Part shown: positions 3,397 to 53,544 of the stretch, one piece after another | How the letters are laid out: each line of letters begins with the position of its first letter | Numbering within the stretch: position 1 is the stretch's first letter | Virus record (IMG/VR): IMGVR_UViG_3300037264_006630 | Span: 62,001-126,000 of that record | From: a virus | DNA: 64,000 bases | Reading direction: 5' to 3' (one strand) | Translations under genes and position numbers: made by a program | Notes under the pieces: generated by a model | Told to the model about the DNA's origin: nothing | Databases searched by the model: none | The model's input: only the letters and a program-made list of their open reading frames with translations

Positions 3397-3770
3397 GCCA
3401 GCACCGCCTCGAGCGCGGCGGCGAGCGCGAGAACGATCTGGTGGAGCGCGGCGACCTTGACCAGCTCGGCGCGCGAGCCGGAGGCGTACATGAGGGTGAC
3501 CCCCACGCGGGGATTGTCGCGGGTGACCTCGGCCGGAGTGCGGAGGGTGATGGCGGCGTGGTCGGCCGTCTCGCACCAGACCGAGGCGTCGGACCGGTAG
3601 CGAACCTCGACACGCTCACCGCGCGCGAAGGCGTCACGCATCATCGCGGCGTCGATCAGTGCCCCGTTGTGGTCGTACAGCCAGGGCTCTTTGGCGAGGA
3701 GCAGCATCACGAGGTTGACCTGGTTGTCGGTCGGGACGGCGGACGCGATCGTGGGCTGCGGTGCGTTCAT
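3393..3770 (-). CDS. Hypothetical protein, first gene of a leaderless operon
   Basis: 125 residues. It begins MNAPQPT; the MN start is imposed by the operator overlapping the start codon. The C-terminal half is similar to the following gene. It heads a six-gene leftward operon (3770 to 1544) in which all junctions overlap or touch. Confidence 0.75.
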   Translation of the reverse strand: MNAPQPTIASAVPTDNQVNLVMLLLAKEPWLYDHNGALIDAAMMRDAFARGERVEVRYRSDASVWCETADHAAITLRTPAEVTRDNPRVGVTLMYASGSRAELVKVAALHQIVLALAAALEAVLA

Positions 3771-3806
3771 ACACACGTTGATACGCACGAAACGCGCGCT
3801 CGTCAA
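3766..3806 (-). promoter_or_regulatory. Type A leaderless promoter with IR1 operator
   Basis: Minus strand: TTGACG (3801-3806), N17, TATCAA (3778-3783), 7 nt, ATG at 3770. The IR1 operator arms are TTCGTGCG (3784-3791) and TGTATGAA (3766-3773), separated by 10 bp and covering the -10 and the start codon. Confidence 0.75.
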
Positions 3807-3857
3807 GCACCATGATCGACCGAGTTGCAGGGCCTCCGATCTGGTAGCGTCGTGCGC

Positions 3858-4103
3858 GTGAAGCCTGCCGGCTCGGTGTGCCGCCTGACCTACCAGACGC
3901 CCGAGGTGGTTGAGGTTGGCGACGCCATCGTGACCGCTACGACCGGCCGGGCCTACCTCGTGATCGCCGCCAGGCGGATGCGGTCGAAGAAGCCCGGGAT
4001 GTGGATGCTCGACTGCATCGTGGCCGACGAGCTGCCGCCGGATGGCGTTCGGGTTCACCCGCTGGTCTGGTGGAGCCGAGAGCGTAAGACGCCTCGCCGG
4101 TGA
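3858..4103 (+). CDS. Hypothetical small basic protein
   Basis: 81 residues from a GTG at 3858. The core (VVEVGDAIVTATTGRAYLVIAARR) looks like a small KOW/SH3-like beta barrel followed by WMLDCIVADELPP. A TAGCGT box lies 7 nt before the GTG, as at other leaderless starts here, but without a clear -35. An earlier start at 3825 is possible. It lies alone between leftward operons. Confidence 0.6.
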   Translation: MKPAGSVCRLTYQTPEVVEVGDAIVTATTGRAYLVIAARRMRSKKPGMWMLDCIVADELPPDGVRVHPLVWWSRERKTPRR

Positions 4104-10331: not shown

Positions 10332-13300
10332 TCAGGCCGCCAGGACTTCGTGCGCCAACTCCAAGAGGAAGTTGCCCCCGCCCGCATCGAACTGCGCCAA
10401 GCCGCCAGCCTCGTCGCCGTCGACCAGCTCGGCCGCTCGCATCTTCCGGGCGATCAGGTCGGTCGCTGTCGCCTGCATCGTGCCGGCGTAGGCCAGGAAC
10501 ACGACCCGCACGGGCTTGATCTGCCCGAGCCGCCAACTCCGGCGGATCGACTGGCGCAGCGTGTTGATGCTGTACTCGATCCCGTACTGGACGATCGTGT
10601 TGGCGAACATCAGGTCCAGTCCCGTCTCGACCAACCTCCCGTTGGTGAACATCACATCGAAGCCGTCCTCGCAGCGATCGCGCATCCACTGCTCCCGCTT
10701 CTCGGGATCGACGCTCGAGTCGAGTTGGACGACACGCAGGCCAGAGGCTTCGAGCGCGGCACGGACGCGGGGACGGGCATCGCGGCGCTGGGTCTGGGTG
10801 AAGAACACCAGCACCTTGCGACCCTTGGCGTGCTCCTCGCGCACCAGCGCGATCAGCTCATCGTCCTTGGGGTAGGAGTCCGGCTCGATTGCCGGGGCCG
10901 ACGCCAGGAGGTCGCCGCGCTCACCGTCGTCGTCGGTGTCGTAGATCTCCTCGCTCTGGTCCGGGCGATCGGGGTAGCCGAGGCACGCCTGGAGGTAGGC
11001 GCCGAGCGCCTTGGGGTGCTTGCGGATCAGCTTCTTCAACTTGCCCTGGAGGTCGGCAACCGCCGCGAGGACGGCCGGGTCCGGCTGCACCAAGCGCACT
11101 TCCTCGGTGTAGTCGGGCAGCTCGAGCCGCAGGTCCCGGAGCTTGACGAACACCGTGAAGGGCAAGAGCAGCGGGATCATGGCCGGCGACATGCCTGGGA
11201 TCTCGCGGATGCGCCCGCCGGTGGTGCCCTTCCGGTAGCCGTACGTGCTGGTGCGCTCCTCCTCCTTGTAGACCGTCTCGAAGAGGCCGTGATGCTCGAC
11301 GAAGGTCGCGCAGTCGGTGTGCTTGTACGTGCGGCGGAACGTCGGGGAGAGGCGGAAGAGCAGGTGGAAGATTGAGGACGCCCGGCCGCCGTAGAGCGTG
11401 CCGGTCATGACCAGCACCTTCCGCGCGCTCGAGATCAGTTGGTGGACGGCGCGCGCCTGGTCGGTCTCCCCCTTCGCGTGCTGGTGCGCTTCGTCGACCA
11501 CCAGCACGTAGCGGCGCGCGTAGTGGTCGTGGATGTAGGCCGCCAGCGGCCAGCGCTTGGTGCCCTTGTTCGTGATCGGCACGACCTGCCAGAGCGGGCT
11601 GCGGCACTCGCTGCACTTCGCCTGGACCTTCCGGTCGATGACCTTCACCTCGGCGCCGCATGCCGGGCAGGCGGCGAAGCTTCGGCGCTCCGTGACCATC
11701 TCCGTGCTGGTCTTGTACGGCCACTCGGTCGATCGGGTGGACACCTCGCGCTCGACGATCTCGCTACCCCGGGTCCAGGCCGACTCCCAGCGGCACCCGA
11801 GCTTGGCGACCTCCTTGCTCAAGACCAAGTAGGTGGCCGTCGGGGAGGCAAAGAACGCATCCACGTCCGCCAACTTCCGGGCGATCATCGCGACGCCGCG
11901 CCGGCCAGTGATGGCCGTGATCTCGCGGACCCACTTGCGGGTGAGATGGGTCGGGCAGACGACCACGACCTTCCGCGCGTGCGCCAACTCGGTGGCGACG
12001 GTGGCCACGCTCGTCTTGCCGCACCCCATTTCGCCGCACAGGATCACCTCCTTGTGCCTGCGCCAGCGGTGAACCACGGCCGCCGCCGCCTCGCGCTGGA
12101 TCGGGAGGATCTCTGGCTCGTCCCGGCCGGGCAGGATTCCAGGCGCGGACAGGCCAGTGAAGTCGTAGGCGTCGAGGTCGCTCGGCTTGAACTGCGGGAC
12201 GTGCGCAGCGAGGATGCCGGCCGCCAACTCGTCGCCGTGCTGCGCGAACCAAGCGCTGGTCTTGGGCTGGTCGTCCTCGACTTGCCACGAATCGAGCACG
12301 CCGGTCTTGAGGTCGAGCACCGAGAGGTACGAGGCGATGCGCTCGCGCACGGTCCGCTCGCCCTCGCCCTGGATCTCGACGGTGGTCTTCACGCTCCCGC
12401 CCTTCACGAGCAACCCCCGAGGGATCGGAGCCACCGGATCGCCGCCGCAGGTGGCGGCGCAACCGCCGGACATGTCGGTGAGCTCGAGCCCGTTCAGGGC
12501 GCCGGCCGCCAGGAGCATCGCTTGGTGACCAGGCCGCGGCGCGAGTAGCGGCGCCAGCTCGTGCGCGGCACCCTCGCCGGTGTGGGCGATCCACTGCTGC
12601 GACAGCCACGCGCCTTCATCGTCGGCGGGCGCGTAGCTCTCAGGCGCGCGGCCGATCAGATCGACCTTCGCGGCGATGACCGGGACGCGGATCGGATAGG
12701 GCTCGGCGTCGACCAGCGAGGGCAGACCGTCGGGGTCGTCGAAGCACTCCACGTTGCCGTAGCCGTAGGTCGAGTTGGTGCGCTGCGCGAAGACCACGAC
12801 TTGATCGAAGGCGGTGACCTCGGGGGCCGGGAAGGCGTAGGCACGGATCGACGAGTAGTGGTTCCGCATGAAGGTGCGGAAGGACTCGATGCGCAGGAGC
12901 TTCCGCGGCACGATGTAGATCAGCAAACCGTAGGGGGCGAGGAAGCGAGTCGTCGCGCGCAGGAATTCGATCTCCTGGCGCATGTTGGCGCCCGTCTCGT
13001 CGGTGCCCTCGTCGTACGGTGGGTTGAGGAACAGGATCCCGAACGGCCGCGCCGCCCGGTCCGGCTCGTGCGTGTCGGGGTTGAGCGCTTTGCCCTTGCC
13101 GTCGAGCACGGCGAGCTGGTGGTAGGAGCCGTGCCGCACCCAGATCATCACGCGAGCAGCCATCGCCGCCCGCTCCTGGTGCAGCTCGATGCCGTACGTG
13201 ACAGCGCCCCACAACTTGCCCAGCGCCGCGGCGGCGTACCCCTCGCCAGCGCAGGGATCGAGGAGCGCAGTGCCGGCCGATTCCGGGTCGAGCCGAACGA

Positions 13301-13376
13301 TGCGCCCGATCATCTGGGTCGGGCGGTCCGGGGTCGGGTAGTAGAGCGCCTTGGCGACGGCTTCGAGGCGCGCCAT
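10332..13376 (-). CDS. Adenine methyltransferase (DUF6094-like) fused to SNF2-type helicase
   Basis: 1014 residues. The N-terminus starts with the YYPTP of DUF6094-type methyltransferases and has SAM motif I (DPCAGEG, 40-46) and the N6-adenine motif LNPPYD (117-122). From about 420 a superfamily-2 helicase begins: Walker A GEMGCGKTS (448-456), a Cys4 zinc ribbon (C570, C573, C588, C591), DEAH (628-631), TGT (658-660) and the SNF2 motif VI RRSWRLGQ (945-952). Both catalytic motifs look intact. A coupled DNA-modification and translocase function is likely (protection of phage DNA, or replication). It follows 13377 without overlap. Confidence 0.9.
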   Translation of the reverse strand: MARLEAVAKALYYPTPDRPTQMIGRIVRLDPESAGTALLDPCAGEGYAAAALGKLWGAVTYGIELHQERAAMAARVMIWVRHGSYHQLAVLDGKGKALNPDTHEPDRAARPFGILFLNPPYDEGTDETGANMRQEIEFLRATTRFLAPYGLLIYIVPRKLLRIESFRTFMRNHYSSIRAYAFPAPEVTAFDQVVVFAQRTNSTYGYGNVECFDDPDGLPSLVDAEPYPIRVPVIAAKVDLIGRAPESYAPADDEGAWLSQQWIAHTGEGAAHELAPLLAPRPGHQAMLLAAGALNGLELTDMSGGCAATCGGDPVAPIPRGLLVKGGSVKTTVEIQGEGERTVRERIASYLSVLDLKTGVLDSWQVEDDQPKTSAWFAQHGDELAAGILAAHVPQFKPSDLDAYDFTGLSAPGILPGRDEPEILPIQREAAAAVVHRWRRHKEVILCGEMGCGKTSVATVATELAHARKVVVVCPTHLTRKWVREITAITGRRGVAMIARKLADVDAFFASPTATYLVLSKEVAKLGCRWESAWTRGSEIVEREVSTRSTEWPYKTSTEMVTERRSFAACPACGAEVKVIDRKVQAKCSECRSPLWQVVPITNKGTKRWPLAAYIHDHYARRYVLVVDEAHQHAKGETDQARAVHQLISSARKVLVMTGTLYGGRASSIFHLLFRLSPTFRRTYKHTDCATFVEHHGLFETVYKEEERTSTYGYRKGTTGGRIREIPGMSPAMIPLLLPFTVFVKLRDLRLELPDYTEEVRLVQPDPAVLAAVADLQGKLKKLIRKHPKALGAYLQACLGYPDRPDQSEEIYDTDDDGERGDLLASAPAIEPDSYPKDDELIALVREEHAKGRKVLVFFTQTQRRDARPRVRAALEASGLRVVQLDSSVDPEKREQWMRDRCEDGFDVMFTNGRLVETGLDLMFANTIVQYGIEYSINTLRQSIRRSWRLGQIKPVRVVFLAYAGTMQATATDLIARKMRAAELVDGDEAGGLAQFDAGGGNFLLELAHEVLAA

Positions 13377-35030: not shown

Positions 35031-35086
35031 GCTCTGGAAGAGATGCACGTCGAGGGCCACTTCACGCGCTCGGTGAGGTGTGCGAA
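35031..35086 (-). promoter_or_regulatory. Type B promoter with IR1
   Basis: Minus strand TGGCCC-N5-GTGCAT, GG at 35058-35057 and GC 14 nt from ATG 35030. IR1 arms TTCGCACA and CGCGTGAA (35061-35086) overlap the last codons of the PP-loop gene. No IR2 seen. Confidence 0.65.
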
Positions 35087-35991
35087 GCAGCGGCGGGGCC
35101 GGGCTCGAGGTAGCCGCAGCCGGCCGCCTTGGTCGCGCGTACCGCCCGGCCGCAGACCTTGCAGGGCTTGCGGTCGCGCTGCGGGGTGTAGGGCGTGGCG
35201 ACCCAGCGATCGAGCGGCGTGCCGGTCTGGGTCTTCGAGTTGTAGGCCATGATCGAGAGCTTGCGGCCGTTCTTCGCGGTGGGCGGCTTGTCGGCCTCGA
35301 GCTTGACGACCCGGGCAAACTGCTCGGGCAGGTCGACGGCGAAGCGCTGCCAGTCGCCCTTGGTGCCGTAGGGGCAGAACACGCAGGCGGACTTGCGCGG
35401 AACCGGGAAGCCGGCGCGCCGCACGAGATCCTCGCACGCGCAACGGCAGAGGCCGCGCTCGATCAGCGGGAAGCGGTTGCGGCGGATCGCGCCGCCCGGC
35501 CGGCGGCGGCGACGGCCGCCCGCGTTCGGATCCTTGTCTGCGCGGGATTCCTCGCCGCGCTCGAACCCGATCCAGACCTCGACCTCTTGGCCGGGGTACC
35601 GATCGTCGAGCCAGCTCTCGAAGCGCTCGACCTTGGCGACGGTGGTGCAGATCCGGTTCGGCCCGGCCATCGGGATCTGCTTCCGCGCGCGCAGCCACGC
35701 GAACAGGCTGCGCGCGTCGCGGACCGGGTAGTTGCTGTGGTCGATGCACACGAACTCGATCCCGTGGCGCGCGCACAGCGGCCGCACCACCTCGTCGATG
35801 TGGCGGTAGGTGCCGGGCCACTCGCCTGGATCGTCGGGGTGGCCGACGTCGATGAACACCACGACGTCGATCCGCTCGCCGCGCGCGATGCCCTCGACGA
35901 GCATGGCGAAGCTGTCGAGGCCACCGCCGAGCGAGAGCACGACGGGGCGGCGCCGGAGCCCCAGGTCGACGGTGAAGTCGAGCTGGTTCAC
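35062..35991 (-). CDS. PP-loop ATPase, PAPS reductase-like
   Basis: 309 residues from GTG (GTGA). VVLSLGGGLDSFAML (17-31) is the PP-loop; HSNYPV and ICTTVAKVERFESW follow the pattern of adenine-nucleotide alpha-hydrolases. A CVFCPYGTKGDW segment and a C-terminal CKVCGRA...GCGY ribbon provide cysteines for metal or sulfur chemistry. These enzymes activate a substrate by adenylylation or reduce sulfonucleotides. In a phage a DNA- or RNA-modifying role, or interference with sulfur transfer, is possible. One of three PP-loop genes in the window. Confidence 0.8.
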   Translation of the reverse strand: MNQLDFTVDLGLRRRPVVLSLGGGLDSFAMLVEGIARGERIDVVVFIDVGHPDDPGEWPGTYRHIDEVVRPLCARHGIEFVCIDHSNYPVRDARSLFAWLRARKQIPMAGPNRICTTVAKVERFESWLDDRYPGQEVEVWIGFERGEESRADKDPNAGGRRRRRPGGAIRRNRFPLIERGLCRCACEDLVRRAGFPVPRKSACVFCPYGTKGDWQRFAVDLPEQFARVVKLEADKPPTAKNGRKLSIMAYNSKTQTGTPLDRWVATPYTPQRDRKPCKVCGRAVRATKAAGCGYLEPGPAAASHTSPSA

Positions 35992-46093: not shown

Positions 46094-47029
46094 ATGATCA
46101 TCACCGTCCAGTTCGCGTTCACCTGCCGTATCTGTGGTCGTCGCGGTGCAGCGGGGTCGCAGGCCGAGTGGAGCAAGGCCGGGGGCACGGCGCACACGAG
46201 CTGCGCCGCCAAGTCGGCCCCGGCGCCCAAGGCGAAGTCCGCACGCAAGCCGGCTGCCCCGCGCCCGGCACCGCGGGTTCCGCAGGCCGGTGAGATCGAG
46301 ATCTCGCGCAAGGGCGACCGCCACGGCCGCTACACCGTTGGCGAGACGATCTACGCGGCCAAGGTCAACGGCGGTGGTGGCGATGGCCACTACTGGACGG
46401 TGGTCGCCGAGGGCTTCTCGCGCGCGAACGAGGACATGGGTCACTACGACGACTTCTGTTGGGCGACCGTGCGCCCGGCGACCGATGCCGAGGTCGCGCC
46501 GGTGGCGGCGCGCCGCGCGGCGGCGGATGCCGCGAAGTCCGCTGCGGCGGTGGCCGCGGGTGGGATGGTCGCGCTGGCGCGCGTCGGCCAGGCGGTCACC
46601 GAAGGCACCTGCCTGTCGCTGGTGGCCGTCGAGGCGCACCGCGTCGTGATGGCGGGCGCCTCCAAGATCTCGACGGTCAAGGACCGCTCGACCACGACCA
46701 CCTGGTTCCGCACTGTCGACGGTACGCTGGTGCGCGAGTCGCACGGCTACGACGACCATCGCCAGTGCGCGTACATCACGGCCGAGGCGCTGCTCGCGTC
46801 GGTGGCCGCCCAGGTCGACGCGGACGCCGATGACCTGCCGCTGGCCGACTCGCTGCGCAACGTCGCCAGCCGCTACAGCTACCCGGTCCACCGCGCCCGC
46901 GTCTGGCTCGCCGCCTCGCGCGGCGAGACGGTCCCGGTGGAGGTCGTGCCGCCGACCCTCGAGCCGCGCGAGTTGGAGACGGACGCCGATGTCCTGGCGA
47001 TGTCGGCCCAGATGGGAGCCTCCCTGTGA
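46094..47029 (+). CDS. Hypothetical protein with N-terminal zinc motif
   Basis: 311 residues. FTCRICGRRGAAG with a later HTSC suggests a zinc finger, then a Lys/Ala/Pro linker, then a domain with YWTVVAEGFSRANED. It ends with a helical acidic region. Leaderless start. First gene of the ibrA-ibrB operon. Confidence 0.7.
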   Translation: MIITVQFAFTCRICGRRGAAGSQAEWSKAGGTAHTSCAAKSAPAPKAKSARKPAAPRPAPRVPQAGEIEISRKGDRHGRYTVGETIYAAKVNGGGGDGHYWTVVAEGFSRANEDMGHYDDFCWATVRPATDAEVAPVAARRAAADAAKSAAAVAAGGMVALARVGQAVTEGTCLSLVAVEAHRVVMAGASKISTVKDRSTTTTWFRTVDGTLVRESHGYDDHRQCAYITAEALLASVAAQVDADADDLPLADSLRNVASRYSYPVHRARVWLAASRGETVPVEVVPPTLEPRELETDADVLAMSAQMGASL

Positions 47030-47445
47030 CGATCACGGTCGACGACTCCACCGTCCACTGCGGCGCCATCCGGCACCTCTGCGCGACCAAGCGTACCGCA
47101 CAGATCACGGCGGCCACGCTCGCGCTCCGTGACGCTGGGTGGACCGTCGTTGGTCCCGCGTCTGGCCTCGGCTACCGCCGCCCCCTCGCGCTGCCTGGCG
47201 AGCGCATGTGCCAGCCGCTCGACGGGTCGCTCGCTGACCAGCGCGCACAGGGCTTCACCGTGTGGCGCCACGACGGCTCCATCAACCCTGACACCGGTGT
47301 TGGCCCGCGCACCGCCGCGCGAGCGATCACGATCGACGCCTGCGCCGGTCTGCCTCTGCTCGTGACCGAGGAGCGCGGCGATGTCGCCGAGGCGCGCGAG
47401 ATCATCGAGTGGTACATCGGGTCGATCGTGCAGGCCAACCCGTGA
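47026..47445 (+). CDS. Hypothetical protein
   Basis: 139 residues from GTG. CGAIRHLCATKRTAQITAAT and EERGDVAEAREIIEWYIGSI are visible; no motif recognised. Coupled both sides. Confidence 0.65.
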   Translation: MTITVDDSTVHCGAIRHLCATKRTAQITAATLALRDAGWTVVGPASGLGYRRPLALPGERMCQPLDGSLADQRAQGFTVWRHDGSINPDTGVGPRTAARAITIDACAGLPLLVTEERGDVAEAREIIEWYIGSIVQANP

Positions 47446-48032
47446 CCGTCGGCCGCCTCAAGATCCTCCGCATCGAGGTGGATGGGCACTTCCGCGGCTC
47501 GTCGGATGTGCCCCGCCCCTGGGTGGCGCAGATCGACGGGCCGGACGCTCGCTGGGGCCTGGCTCGCACGTTCATTCAGTGCCTGCGCGACTGGCGTGGC
47601 GCTCACCGCGCGAACAGCGGCAACCTCTACGGCGTGGTCGCGGCGTTCCCGCTCCACGACGGCAAGCTCTACGAGGTGTGCCGCCTGCGCGGCAAGTCGA
47701 GCAAGCGCCACGTCGCGCGCGAGTTCTGGCGCGTGGTCGACGGCAAGATGGTCGAGCTCGAGCCGAGCGAGGCGCTCGCTCTTGCCGATGGCTACGATGG
47801 CCCCGCGGTCGAGCACACGGTCGCCGACGGGACCAAGGTGGCGCTCGTCACCGGGCTCGGGACCCCGACGCCGCTCGGGTTCGTGATGGCGGACGGCCGG
47901 CGCCTGTTCCGGCTGCGCGACGGCCACATCCACGAGGTCATGACCGACACCGGCCGCGAGCTCCTCGCGGTGCGAGACGGCGATGTCGCGTCCATCTCGG
48001 ACATGGAGGCGTTGGCGTGGCTGATGCGATGA
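47442..48032 (+). CDS. Hypothetical protein
   Basis: 196 residues from GTG. Beta-rich (YGVVAAFPLHDGKLYEVCRL; PLGFVMADGRRLFRLRDGHI). ATGA overlap with the IbrA-like gene. Unassigned. Confidence 0.7.
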   Translation: MTVGRLKILRIEVDGHFRGSSDVPRPWVAQIDGPDARWGLARTFIQCLRDWRGAHRANSGNLYGVVAAFPLHDGKLYEVCRLRGKSSKRHVAREFWRVVDGKMVELEPSEALALADGYDGPAVEHTVADGTKVALVTGLGTPTPLGFVMADGRRLFRLRDGHIHEVMTDTGRELLAVRDGDVASISDMEALAWLMR

Positions 48033-49243
48033 AGCGACCGATCGGGATCGACGTCCTCGCCGCCGCTCGCCAGCGGATCGCGTGGGTGTTCGACGCCTTC
48101 CCGCGGATCTACCTGTCCGGCCCCAGCGGCAAGGACTCGTCGGTGATGATGCACCTGGTCTGCCAGGAGGCGCGTCGCCGCGGTCGGCGGGTGGGCGTGC
48201 TGTTCCTCGATCTCGAGGCGCAGTACCGCCTCACCATCGACCACGTCCGCGACATGTTCGCGCTCTACGCCGACGTGATCGATCCGTTCTGGGTCGCCCT
48301 GCCGCTCAACCTGCGCAACGCGGTGAGCCAGATCGCCCCGTTCTGGACGTGCTGGGATCCTGCGGCCGAGCCGCTCTGGGTGCGGCCCCGGGAGCCGGGC
48401 AGCATCGCCGACCCCGAGCGCTTCCCGTTCTACCGCCACGCGATGGAGTTCGAGGAGTTCGTCGAGGGGTTCGGCAACTGGTACGCGGGCGACGAGGCGT
48501 GCGCGTGCTTCGTCGGCATCCGCGCCAACGAGTCGCTCAACCGCTGGCGGGCGATCGTCCGGCGCCGGAAGTCGCGGCTCGAGGGCCGCGCCTACACCAC
48601 CTGGCGCGGTGACCAGCTCGTGAACGTCTACCCGATCTACGACTGGCGCACCGAGGATATCTGGACCTACGTCGGCCGCGAGCGCGCGGCCTACAACCGC
48701 ATCTACGACGGCATGCACCAGGCCGGGATGTCGATCCACCAGATGCGGATCTGCCAGCCCTACGGGGATGACCAGCGCCGGAGTTTGAACCTTTACCACG
48801 TCCTCGAGCCCCTCACCTGGACCCGCGTCGTCGCGCGCGTGGCCGGCGCCAACCAGGGCGCGCTCTACGCCGGCAAGCGCGGCAACATCCTCGGCAACGG
48901 CAACATCGTGCTGCCCGCCGGCCACACCTGGCAGAGCTTCGTGGAGTTCCTGCTCGCCTCGATGCCGCAGGCCGAGGCAGACAACTACCGCGACAAGATC
49001 GCGGTGTTCATCCAGTGGTGGCGCAACCGGTACGGCCTCGAGATGACCGAGGACGACGACCCCGATCTGGTCGGCACGTACAAGCGCCAGCCGACGTGGA
49101 AGCGGGTGGCCAAGGTCATCCTCAAGAACGACTTTCTCTGCAAGGGTCTGAGCTTCTCGCAGCAACGCAGCGAGCCGAGCTCGTACGACCGGTACAAGAA
49201 GCTGATGCGCGACCGCCGCGCGAGATGGGGCATCTACGCATGA
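48029..49243 (+). CDS. IbrA-like PAPS reductase-family protein (DUF3440)
   Basis: 404 residues. IYLSGPSGKDSSVMMHL (27-43) is the PP-loop; FLDLEAQYRLTIDHV, GIRANESLNRWRAI, YPIYDWRTEDIWTYV and RICQPYGDDQRRSLNLYH follow the DUF3440 pattern of IbrA. It is the usual length. IbrA is encoded next to the ParB-like IbrB, as here with one small gene between. The pair was described as regulators of immunoglobulin-binding proteins in E. coli prophages; biochemistry is unresolved. I infer sulfonucleotide or DNA-modification-type chemistry. Confidence 0.85.
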   Translation: MKRPIGIDVLAAARQRIAWVFDAFPRIYLSGPSGKDSSVMMHLVCQEARRRGRRVGVLFLDLEAQYRLTIDHVRDMFALYADVIDPFWVALPLNLRNAVSQIAPFWTCWDPAAEPLWVRPREPGSIADPERFPFYRHAMEFEEFVEGFGNWYAGDEACACFVGIRANESLNRWRAIVRRRKSRLEGRAYTTWRGDQLVNVYPIYDWRTEDIWTYVGRERAAYNRIYDGMHQAGMSIHQMRICQPYGDDQRRSLNLYHVLEPLTWTRVVARVAGANQGALYAGKRGNILGNGNIVLPAGHTWQSFVEFLLASMPQAEADNYRDKIAVFIQWWRNRYGLEMTEDDDPDLVGTYKRQPTWKRVAKVILKNDFLCKGLSFSQQRSEPSSYDRYKKLMRDRRARWGIYA

Positions 49244-49614
49244 CCGACGACAAGGACAAGAACGGCATCCCGCTGGACCTCGTGCGCGCTGCGCGCCGCG
49301 AGGAGTCGCTCCGCGGACGGGTCCACCTGTGCAGCACCCGCCGCGAGCCGCTCCTGGTCGATGGGCAGGTGGTCGGCTTCGTCACTCCGCGCCAGGTCGG
49401 CGACGCCTGGCGGCACGGCCCGATCTACGTGGCCCCGGGCTTCCGCAGTCGGGGACTCGTGGCCGCCTACTACGCCTCCCACCCGGAGCGGATCTGCGTG
49501 GCGTTCGTCGCCGACAGTAACCGCTCGTCGCGGTCTGCGCACGTCGCGGCTGGGTTCGCCAACTGGCGCCGCGGCAAGGACGGCTGGTTCATGCGGCGGG
49601 AGGCGCAGCCGTGA
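49240..49614 (+). CDS. GNAT-like acetyltransferase
   Basis: 124 residues, short for the fold. PIYVAPGFRSRGLVAAYY is the acetyl-CoA loop region and FVADSNRSSRSAHVAAGF the C-terminal GNAT pattern. It lies between IbrA-like and IbrB-like genes with 4-bp overlaps, so it may modify the same target or substrate. ATG start (ATGA). Confidence 0.75.
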   Translation: MTDDKDKNGIPLDLVRAARREESLRGRVHLCSTRREPLLVDGQVVGFVTPRQVGDAWRHGPIYVAPGFRSRGLVAAYYASHPERICVAFVADSNRSSRSAHVAAGFANWRRGKDGWFMRREAQP

Positions 49615-50240
49615 TCGAGGCCCTGACCGAGCAGCTCTGCGCCGAGCTCGCGCAGCTCGACGAGGACGCGCGGATCGACGCACTCAACGCCGTGCGCACC
49701 GCCCTGCACGCGGTGTCGCCGCTGCGCGCCGAGCCGGTCGACCTGGTGCTGTGGGTCCGGGCCGAGCAGGTCCGCGGCAACGACTACAACCCCAACAGCG
49801 TAGCGCCGCCCGAGATGCGGCTCCTCCAGCACAGCGTCCTGGCCAACGGCTTCACCATGCCGATCGTCACCCATGAGATCGACGACGGCGTGACCGAGGT
49901 GGTCGATGGGTTCCACCGCCACCGCATCGGCAAGGACACCCCGGAGATCCGCACGCGCTGTCACGCCCGCCTGCCGGTCACCCGGATCCGCGCCGACCGC
50001 GCCGACACCGGCGCCCGCATCGCCGCCACCATCGAGCACAACCGCGCCCGCGGTGAGCATCAGGTCGGCCGCATGAGCGAGATCGTCCGCATGCTGTACC
50101 AGCAGGGCTGGAGCGAGACGCGGATCATGAAGGAGTTGGGGATGGAGGCCGACGAAGTGTTGCGCCTCAAGCAGATGACCGGGCTCGCTGACCTGTTCGC
50201 GGGCCGTGAATTCTCCGAGGCATGGGAGCCGAACGAATGA
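49611..50240 (+). CDS. IbrB-like ParB-domain protein
   Basis: 209 residues. NDYNPNSVAPPEMRLLQHS (57-75) and EVVDGFHRHRIG (96-107) are the ParB/Srx-type nucleotide-binding core; GARIAATIEHNRARGEHQ and an HTH (GWSETRIMKELGMEADEV) follow as in IbrB. ParB-fold proteins bind CTP or act as ATP-dependent enzymes. Its pairing with the IbrA-like protein supports the call. Confidence 0.85.
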   Translation: MIEALTEQLCAELAQLDEDARIDALNAVRTALHAVSPLRAEPVDLVLWVRAEQVRGNDYNPNSVAPPEMRLLQHSVLANGFTMPIVTHEIDDGVTEVVDGFHRHRIGKDTPEIRTRCHARLPVTRIRADRADTGARIAATIEHNRARGEHQVGRMSEIVRMLYQQGWSETRIMKELGMEADEVLRLKQMTGLADLFAGREFSEAWEPNE

Positions 50241-50461
50241 CCGACCGCATCCGCCACCTCACCGTCCTGCTCGAGCAGGACACCCGCACCGACGATCTCG
50301 AACCGATCATCGCCGCCATCTCCCACATCCGCGGCGTCGCCAAGGTGACGCCCGGCCAGCCGGTGAACATGAGTGACTACATCGCCCGCGAGACCGCCAA
50401 GCGCGAACTCGGCGTGCAGCTCTTGGCGATCGTCTTCCCGAAGCAGGAGCCGCGGTCGTGA
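50237..50461 (+). CDS. Hypothetical small protein
   Basis: 74 residues from ATG (ATGA). DDLEPIIAAISHIRGVAKVT resembles a small ferredoxin-like fold; the tail is basic. Unassigned. Confidence 0.65.
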   Translation: MTDRIRHLTVLLEQDTRTDDLEPIIAAISHIRGVAKVTPGQPVNMSDYIARETAKRELGVQLLAIVFPKQEPRS

Positions 50462-52389: not shown

Positions 52390-53544
52390 ATGCAAGCGCT
52401 CCTGAACATCACGACGACGAGGCCCGGCCGCACTGACCGTGGCGTCATCGACGATGACGCGGTTGCGGCGCTGCTCGCCGCCAACGCGCCGGTGGCGATC
52501 GGCGTGTCGGGCGGGAAGGACTCCTGCGCCTGCGCGCTGAAGACCATCGAGCACCTCGACGCGATCGGTCACACCGGCCCCCGCGTCCTGGTCCACAGCG
52601 ACTTGGGCCGGGTGGAGTGGGCGGATTCGGGCCCCACCTGCGAGCGGCTGGCCGCCCACCTCGGCCTCGAGTTGCTGACCGTCCGTCGCGAGGCTGGCGA
52701 CATGATGGACCGCTGGCTCGTCCGCTGGTCCAACAACTGCGAGCGCTACCGCACCCTCCGGTGCGTGAAGAAGATCCTGCCCTGGTCGACGCCGGCCATG
52801 CGGTTTTGCACCAGCGAGATGAAGACCGCCGTCATCTGCCGTGCCCTGGTGGCGCGCTTCCCGGGCCAGACCATCGTGTCGGCCAGCGGCATCCGCCGCG
52901 AGGAGAGCGCCCGACGGAAGAAGGCGCCGATCTCCAAGCCGCAGAAGAAGCTGACCAGCACGACCCGCTGCACCACCGGCCTGGACTGGAACCCGATCCT
53001 CGAGTGGACCAAGACCGACGTGTTCGCCTTCTGCGCTGACCGCGGCTTCGCGATGCACGAGGCGTACGCCACCTACGGGGTGACGCGGGTGAGCTGCGTG
53101 TTCTGCATCATGTCGAGCGCCGACGACCTCGTGGCCTCGGCCGCGTGCCTGGGCAACCAGGACGTCTTCCGCGAGATGGTCGACCTGGAGATTCGCAGCA
53201 CCTTTGCCTTCCAGGGCGGCAAGTGGCTGGCTGATTCTGCACCCCACCTGCTCGACGCCGACCGCCGCGCGGCCCTCGTGGTCGCCAAGGAGCGTGCAGC
53301 CCGGCGAGTGGCGGCGGAGAGCCGGATCCCCAAGCACCTCCTCTTCACCAAGGGCTGGCCCACCGTCATGCCCACCGCGGAAGAGGCGGTGATGCTGTGC
53401 GAGGTTCGCTCCGAGGTGGCCGCGCTGCTCGGCCTCACCATCGAGTACACCGAGCCCGCGGCGCTACTCGGGCGCTACCGCGAGCTGATGGCGATGAACG
53501 CGGCAAAGGTGCAGGTCGATGACGAGGACGACGACGACGCTTGA
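52390..53544 (+). CDS. PAPS reductase-family PP-loop protein
   Basis: 384 residues. VAIGVSGGKDSCACALK (35-51) has a canonical SGGKDS; HSDLGRVEW, RFCTSEMKT, SGIRREESARR, NPILEWTKTDVFAF and VSCVFCIMSS follow the phage PAPS-reductase-like family. The C-terminus is acidic (DDEDDDDA). Such phage proteins are common; the substrate is unknown. Its TGA lies inside the -35 of the next promoter. Confidence 0.85.
   Translation: MQALLNITTTRPGRTDRGVIDDDAVAALLAANAPVAIGVSGGKDSCACALKTIEHLDAIGHTGPRVLVHSDLGRVEWADSGPTCERLAAHLGLELLTVRREAGDMMDRWLVRWSNNCERYRTLRCVKKILPWSTPAMRFCTSEMKTAVICRALVARFPGQTIVSASGIRREESARRKKAPISKPQKKLTSTTRCTTGLDWNPILEWTKTDVFAFCADRGFAMHEAYATYGVTRVSCVFCIMSSADDLVASAACLGNQDVFREMVDLEIRSTFAFQGGKWLADSAPHLLDADRRAALVVAKERAARRVAAESRIPKHLLFTKGWPTVMPTAEEAVMLCEVRSEVAALLGLTIEYTEPAALLGRYRELMAMNAAKVQVDDEDDDDA

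Follow-up and report, generated by a model that had tools for sequence, protein, structure and literature searches.

Gene content of the locus

The window analysed here is a stretch of 64,000 nucleotides (64 kb) taken from a virus record of 184,943 bases, and phage terminase, portal-like and head genes are present in the same record. The sequence-only reading had described an IbrA-like gene, a gene of 124 residues and an IbrB-like gene in this order at 48029-50240, and all three open reading frames were found as claimed. The genes of the locus are as follows.

47442..48032, + strand: family Z protein, 196 aa from the likely start at 47442 (frame open from 47409), 4-bp overlap with IbrA
48029..49243, + strand: IbrA, PP-loop ATP pyrophosphatase/PAPS-reductase-like protein with DUF3440, ATG start, 404 aa
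49240..49614, + strand: compact protein with predicted GNAT fold, W type, ATG start, 124 aa
49611..50240, + strand: IbrB, ParB/sulfiredoxin-superfamily protein, GTG start, 209 aa
50237..50461, + strand: small ORF, 74 aa, next in the overlapping chain

The cassette is an extended form of IbrAB with the arrangement Z-IbrA-GNAT-IbrB. Membership of the 74-aa ORF in the module is not supported, as it is joined to IbrB by a 4-bp overlap only and gave no significant family match with the Pfam and PHROG profiles. Both the IbrA/GNAT and the GNAT/IbrB junctions are 4-bp overlaps (ATGA/GTGA), and the chain of overlapping genes runs on to both sides, from 46094 to 50461. The overlaps, previously taken to couple the three genes, are real, but they are ordinary in this DNA, where 41 of 105 same-strand junctions across the whole window have exactly this spacing, and they were discarded as a sign of coupling.

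IbrA of the window matches DUF3440 (PF11922, 1.3e-36) and PAPS_reduct (PF01507, 1.3e-13), with scores of 126.5 and 51.8 bits that exceed the respective cut-offs of 25 and 22.5, as well as phrog_2302 (1.9e-82). The conserved motifs GKDS, DxExQ, GIRxxES and YDWxxxDxW are present. Its PP-loop reads SGPSGKDS and not SFS(G/A)GKDS, such that GKDS of the motif SxSGGKDS is kept. Among the 216 IbrA proteins compared below, SGPSGKDS occurs only in the window and in locus L007, which are exactly the two cassettes with a W-type GNAT; as a PSGKDS loop is found in only one of the 215 others, the chemistry of the window IbrA may be altered. IbrB was recognised by its match to phrog_2159 (1.4e-64) and by its position one gene away from IbrA, the Pfam ParB_N match reaching only 0.019. 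The motifs NDYNPN, DGFHR and HNRARG are invariant across 14 relatives. No match to a solved structure was found by sequence for IbrA, the GNAT or IbrB of the window.

Two more PAPS-reductase-like PP-loop genes (phrog_424) are located in the window at 52390-53544 (+) and 35062-35991 (-), the former also weakly resembling BrxP/DndC/SspD, and to find three genes of this kind within 64 kb seems unusual. A large protein fusing a DUF6094 methyltransferase to an SNF2-type helicase is encoded at 10332-13376 (-).

Predicted structure of the middle protein

The description of the middle gene as GNAT-like is weak by sequence, as Pfam Acetyltransf_1 gave E=0.019 and 15.7 bits, below the cut-off of 20.7. 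A GNAT 46% identical to it occupies exactly the same position in L007 and also falls under the sequence cut-off (21.9 versus 22.7), and members elsewhere (L038, L205) pass the curated GNAT cut-offs. A score below the cut-off lowers the confidence of the sequence assignment only, since the cut-off is no structural requirement. Structure prediction supports the description. An AlphaFold model built on an alignment of the protein with its relatives is confident (pLDDT 90.4, pTM 0.79), and the best 50 structural matches listed for it by Foldseek and a second aligner are all GNATs, a fold defined by a mixed beta sheet in which strands 4 and 5 splay apart and which is flanked by helices. The best match is RimI (2cnm), with Z 11.9, 118 of 124 residues aligned and an rmsd of 2.6. 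A GNAT fold of the 124-aa protein is thus supported by the model. While the protein resembles RimI/Ard1-type GNATs in fold, it differs from them in its sequence (only 10–18% identity), its short acceptor-side region and a bulky residue in the CoA loop: of the loop R/Q-x-x-G-x-G/A it keeps R69-S-R-G72, with V74 standing where GNATs usually have G or A.

Compared with a profile of the GNATs from other IbrAB loci, here designated type G, the window protein scored 9.3 bits with an hhalign probability of 80%. The W type has the fold and the position of type G but another acceptor-side sequence, and it may be a diverged form of G or a separate recruit.

Recurrence of the GNAT in IbrAB loci

Relatives of IbrA and IbrB were collected from viral contigs and bacterial genomes, and 216 loci were retained after removal of duplicates, with the gene order A-B in 155 and B-A in 61. 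GNATs were recognised by profiles made from genes between IbrA and IbrB. When the three-gene order was sought in these loci, a GNAT was found in 28 of the 216 non-redundant loci, a share of 13% that is no census, the loci having been picked by similarity to the window IbrA and its relatives. The GNAT gene, far from being absent from all related cassettes, thus recurs; it lies between IbrA and IbrB in 27 of the 28, in both gene orders. The host contigs of the loci include Dactylosporangium, Streptomyces, Thiodictyon, Mailhella and Bacillota. The 28 layouts (A, IbrA; B, IbrB; G, GNAT) are distributed as follows.

Z-A-G-B: 8 loci
A-G-B: 7 loci
B-Y-G-A: 7 loci
Y-A-G-B: 2 loci
W type: 2 loci, the window and L007
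B-G-Y-A: 1 locus
B-Y-A-G: 1 locus

A tandem pair of GNATs, at 2468-2836 and 3507-3869, is found between IbrA and IbrB in L279.

The viral collection was also scanned with three GNAT alignments alone, no IbrAB query being used. These scans gave 31 loci on 30 contigs, corresponding to 27 clusters at 95% nucleotide identity, and 16 of the 30 contigs were absent from the set collected with IbrAB. IbrA and IbrB immediately adjoin the GNAT in 31 of 31 loci. In each of six bacterial genomes, where 11–65 candidates per genome were scored, a single match to the GNAT profile was obtained at E<=1e-6, always in the IbrAB locus. At 1e-10, 298 genomes from the order of Dactylosporangium gave one match and 395 from the family of Streptomyces gave two, all in IbrAB cassettes, and one of these three cassettes from 693 actinobacterial genomes is new; the stringent profile threshold of the genome scans is one that remote GNAT relatives away from IbrAB could escape. 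The W-type GNAT had no match in 396 actinobacterial genomes, a scan in which no positive control matched either.

These results bear on the explanation that the GNAT gene is mere cargo, unrelated to IbrA and IbrB and lying between them by chance. In INPHARED, 214 annotated phage records contain IbrA relatives and no record of any kind is matched by any of four GNAT queries, which speaks for such an explanation, but it is already contradicted by the recurrence of the GNAT in both gene orders and by its exclusive association with IbrAB in the viral scans, and it is hardly credible. The searches show that the GNAT, although optional, is dedicated to IbrAB as a partner and is no stray gene. Since GNATs of this kind turned up again and again in cassettes from phages and bacteria that are not related, and nowhere else in these searches, the GNAT very probably contributes to the function of IbrAB, whatever that may be, and the functional tie between acetyltransferase and IbrAB that was suggested from the window is strongly supported by the two sets of loci.

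Families Z and Y

Family Z is defined by a profile made from proteins encoded next to IbrA, and this profile gives 78.7 bits for the protein upstream of the window IbrA, a partner that the sequence-only reading had overlooked. The family is found beside IbrA in 45 of the 216 non-redundant loci, the window included, nearly always directly upstream. The window member is beta-rich and matches phrog_26647 (E=4e-5), a family of unknown function; its predicted model (pLDDT 74) gave no reliable fold match. Family Y, with the motif HTYxKWEC, is present in 90 of the 216 loci, either free-standing, in which case it is located between IbrB and IbrA in the examples below, or fused to the C-terminus of IbrB.

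L017, 4520-5980: family Y
L018, 4826-5971: family Y
L002, 5605-6003: family Y
L003, 5665-6090: family Y

Neither Z nor Y matches a Pfam family. The two occur together in none of the 216 loci, and we infer that they are alternative subunits. The third genes of Pseudomonas phage Amjad_SA and Microcystis phage Mwe-JY13, considered as possible GNATs, were found to belong to family Y. Clustering of the ORFs near the cassettes brought up no further conserved partner, the clusters consisting of shadow ORFs of IbrA/IbrB and of neighbours from enterobacterial chromosomes. In L005 (4608-5507, Mycobacterium phage Gaia gp104), IbrB carries an N-terminal extension annotated as ectoine-synthase-like (cupin).

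Gain, loss and divergence of the GNAT

The presence of the GNAT requires at least 19 changes of state on a fast tree of the 216 IbrA proteins, trees of this kind being noisy, and at least five on a tree of better quality for the 45 loci that have Z. In two supported sister pairs, L009/L010 and L101/L111, one member has the GNAT and the other lacks it. The term "inserted", applied earlier to the GNAT gene, is therefore apt insofar as it denotes an optional gene, present in some cassettes and missing from their sisters. Within GNAT-bearing loci, the divergence of the GNAT is correlated with that of IbrA (Mantel r 0.73, 0 of 2000 permutations), which indicates that the GNAT has mostly been inherited together with IbrA; it has often been lost and possibly regained. 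As 188 of the 216 cassettes have no recognised GNAT, the core function of IbrAB does not require one.

A gene gained or lost between sisters could be a regulator. The GNAT might switch IbrAB on or off by acetylating a protein, be it IbrA, IbrB or a different one, at a lysine or at the N-terminus, leaving nucleic acid untouched. Many of the closest solved structures are indeed acetyltransferases of protein N-termini or ribosomal proteins (RimI, Ard1, Naa50), and protein substrates have been inferred for RimI-like phage GNATs (PMC5512222). However, Z values of about 11–12 are common to GNATs with very different substrates, aminoglycoside and protein acetyltransferases alike, so structural similarity cannot tell the substrates apart, and regulation of this sort is considered unlikely. 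The optional distribution and the exclusive link to IbrAB would also fit a product of IbrAB that harms host or phage and is inactivated by the GNAT in the manner of an immunity acetyltransferase; MccE, the GNAT that confers immunity to microcin C7, belongs to the structural neighbours, as do many others. Such a role is very improbable, as the large majority of the loci manage without a recognised GNAT and we know of no toxicity of IbrAB.

The R-x-x-G sequence of the CoA loop is lost in about 6 of 26 GNATs (L009, L086, L190, L191, L204 and L048), and nearly all IbrAB-linked GNATs have a bulky residue at the G/A position that follows; for these reasons part of the family may be non-catalytic. 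The GNATs also diverge faster than their IbrA partners, with a mean identity of 26% versus 52%. These features are consistent with a subunit that has a structural and no catalytic role in an IbrA-GNAT-IbrB complex, its fold being kept while the cofactor site is being lost. About three quarters of the proteins nevertheless keep R-x-x-G, that of the window among them, and fast divergence alone is no proof of lost catalysis, so that a purely structural role appears distinctly unlikely.

Comparison with known systems

The two core proteins of the window are those of IbrA/IbrB, known as prophage activators in E. coli ECOR-9 and as YbdN/YbdM in E. coli K-12, and IbrA of E. coli phage PhiR5_2 is 46% identical to the window IbrA. 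The cassettes examined in E. coli phages and on enterobacterial chromosomes are bare IbrA-IbrB, whereas the window adds the GNAT and Z.

Identity with the Dnd/Ssp phosphorothioation systems was rejected, as the window IbrA scored 16.3 bits on the DndC model, far below the cut-off of 290.4, and no DndA/D/E or SspA/B/C homologue was detected among the cassette neighbours scanned. To our knowledge, Dnd has no GNAT. Mom of phage Mu is a GNAT-fold phage protein that modifies DNA and works without IbrAB; it is not among the best 50 structural matches of the window GNAT, which excludes nothing. Thymidylate synthase is a common mark of thymidine-hypermodifying phages, and none was found in the virus record; thymidine hypermodification was set aside for this reason, which bears on one chemistry only.

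ParB-superfamily proteins accompany the modifying enzyme in known DNA-modification systems: in Dnd, the ParB-superfamily protein DndB occurs with the PP-loop protein DndC, and in Dpd the ParB-like ATPase DpdB is paired with the base-modifying enzyme DpdA (PMC12839542). The Dpd enzyme is a tRNA-guanine transglycosylase, while that of IbrAB is a PP-loop protein, and Dpd has no GNAT. The substrates of GNATs include DNA besides proteins and small molecules (PMC5512222).

Proposed role of the cassette

The multi-step modification of a nucleic acid or protein that was suggested from the window is plausible. By analogy with Dpd and Dnd and with GNATs acting on DNA, it is tentatively proposed that IbrB engages a nucleic-acid target, which IbrA activates, and that the GNAT acylates the product, with Z and Y as alternative subunits. 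The PP-loop of IbrA would activate (adenylate) a site on the target, phage or host DNA being the first choice, and IbrB would engage the target or provide a nucleotide-dependent switch. The GNAT would then move an acyl group from a CoA donor onto the group installed by IbrAB, such that GNAT-bearing cassettes would produce a more elaborate modification, and Z or Y, never both, may determine specificity or assembly. The title of a study by Sandt (2002), as given in a citing paper (PMC10434257), reportedly concerns activation of the prophage eib genes by IbrAB in E. coli; this title points to gene regulation and names no modification, which counts against the proposal. The unusual PP-loop of the window IbrA, the loss of the CoA loop in some GNATs and the many cassettes with no recognised GNAT weigh against it as well. 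The wider claim of an undescribed system for nucleic-acid modification in phages and bacteria, built around IbrAB, with Z and Y as interchangeable subunits and an optional acyltransferase leading to a novel acylated nucleoside, is rather doubtful.

No description of a GNAT with IbrAB was found in the openly available literature, and as far as that literature goes neither the variant with the GNAT nor family Y or Z seems to have been described, while IbrAB itself is known but unexplained. Hundreds of phages and many bacteria, E. coli K-12 among them, encode IbrA and IbrB, for which there is no agreed function. The range of chemistries open to IbrAB is narrowed by a dedicated partner with an acyltransferase fold and by the two undescribed families that accompany it, and the close sisters with and without the GNAT (L009/L010 and L101/L111) constitute a ready comparison set.
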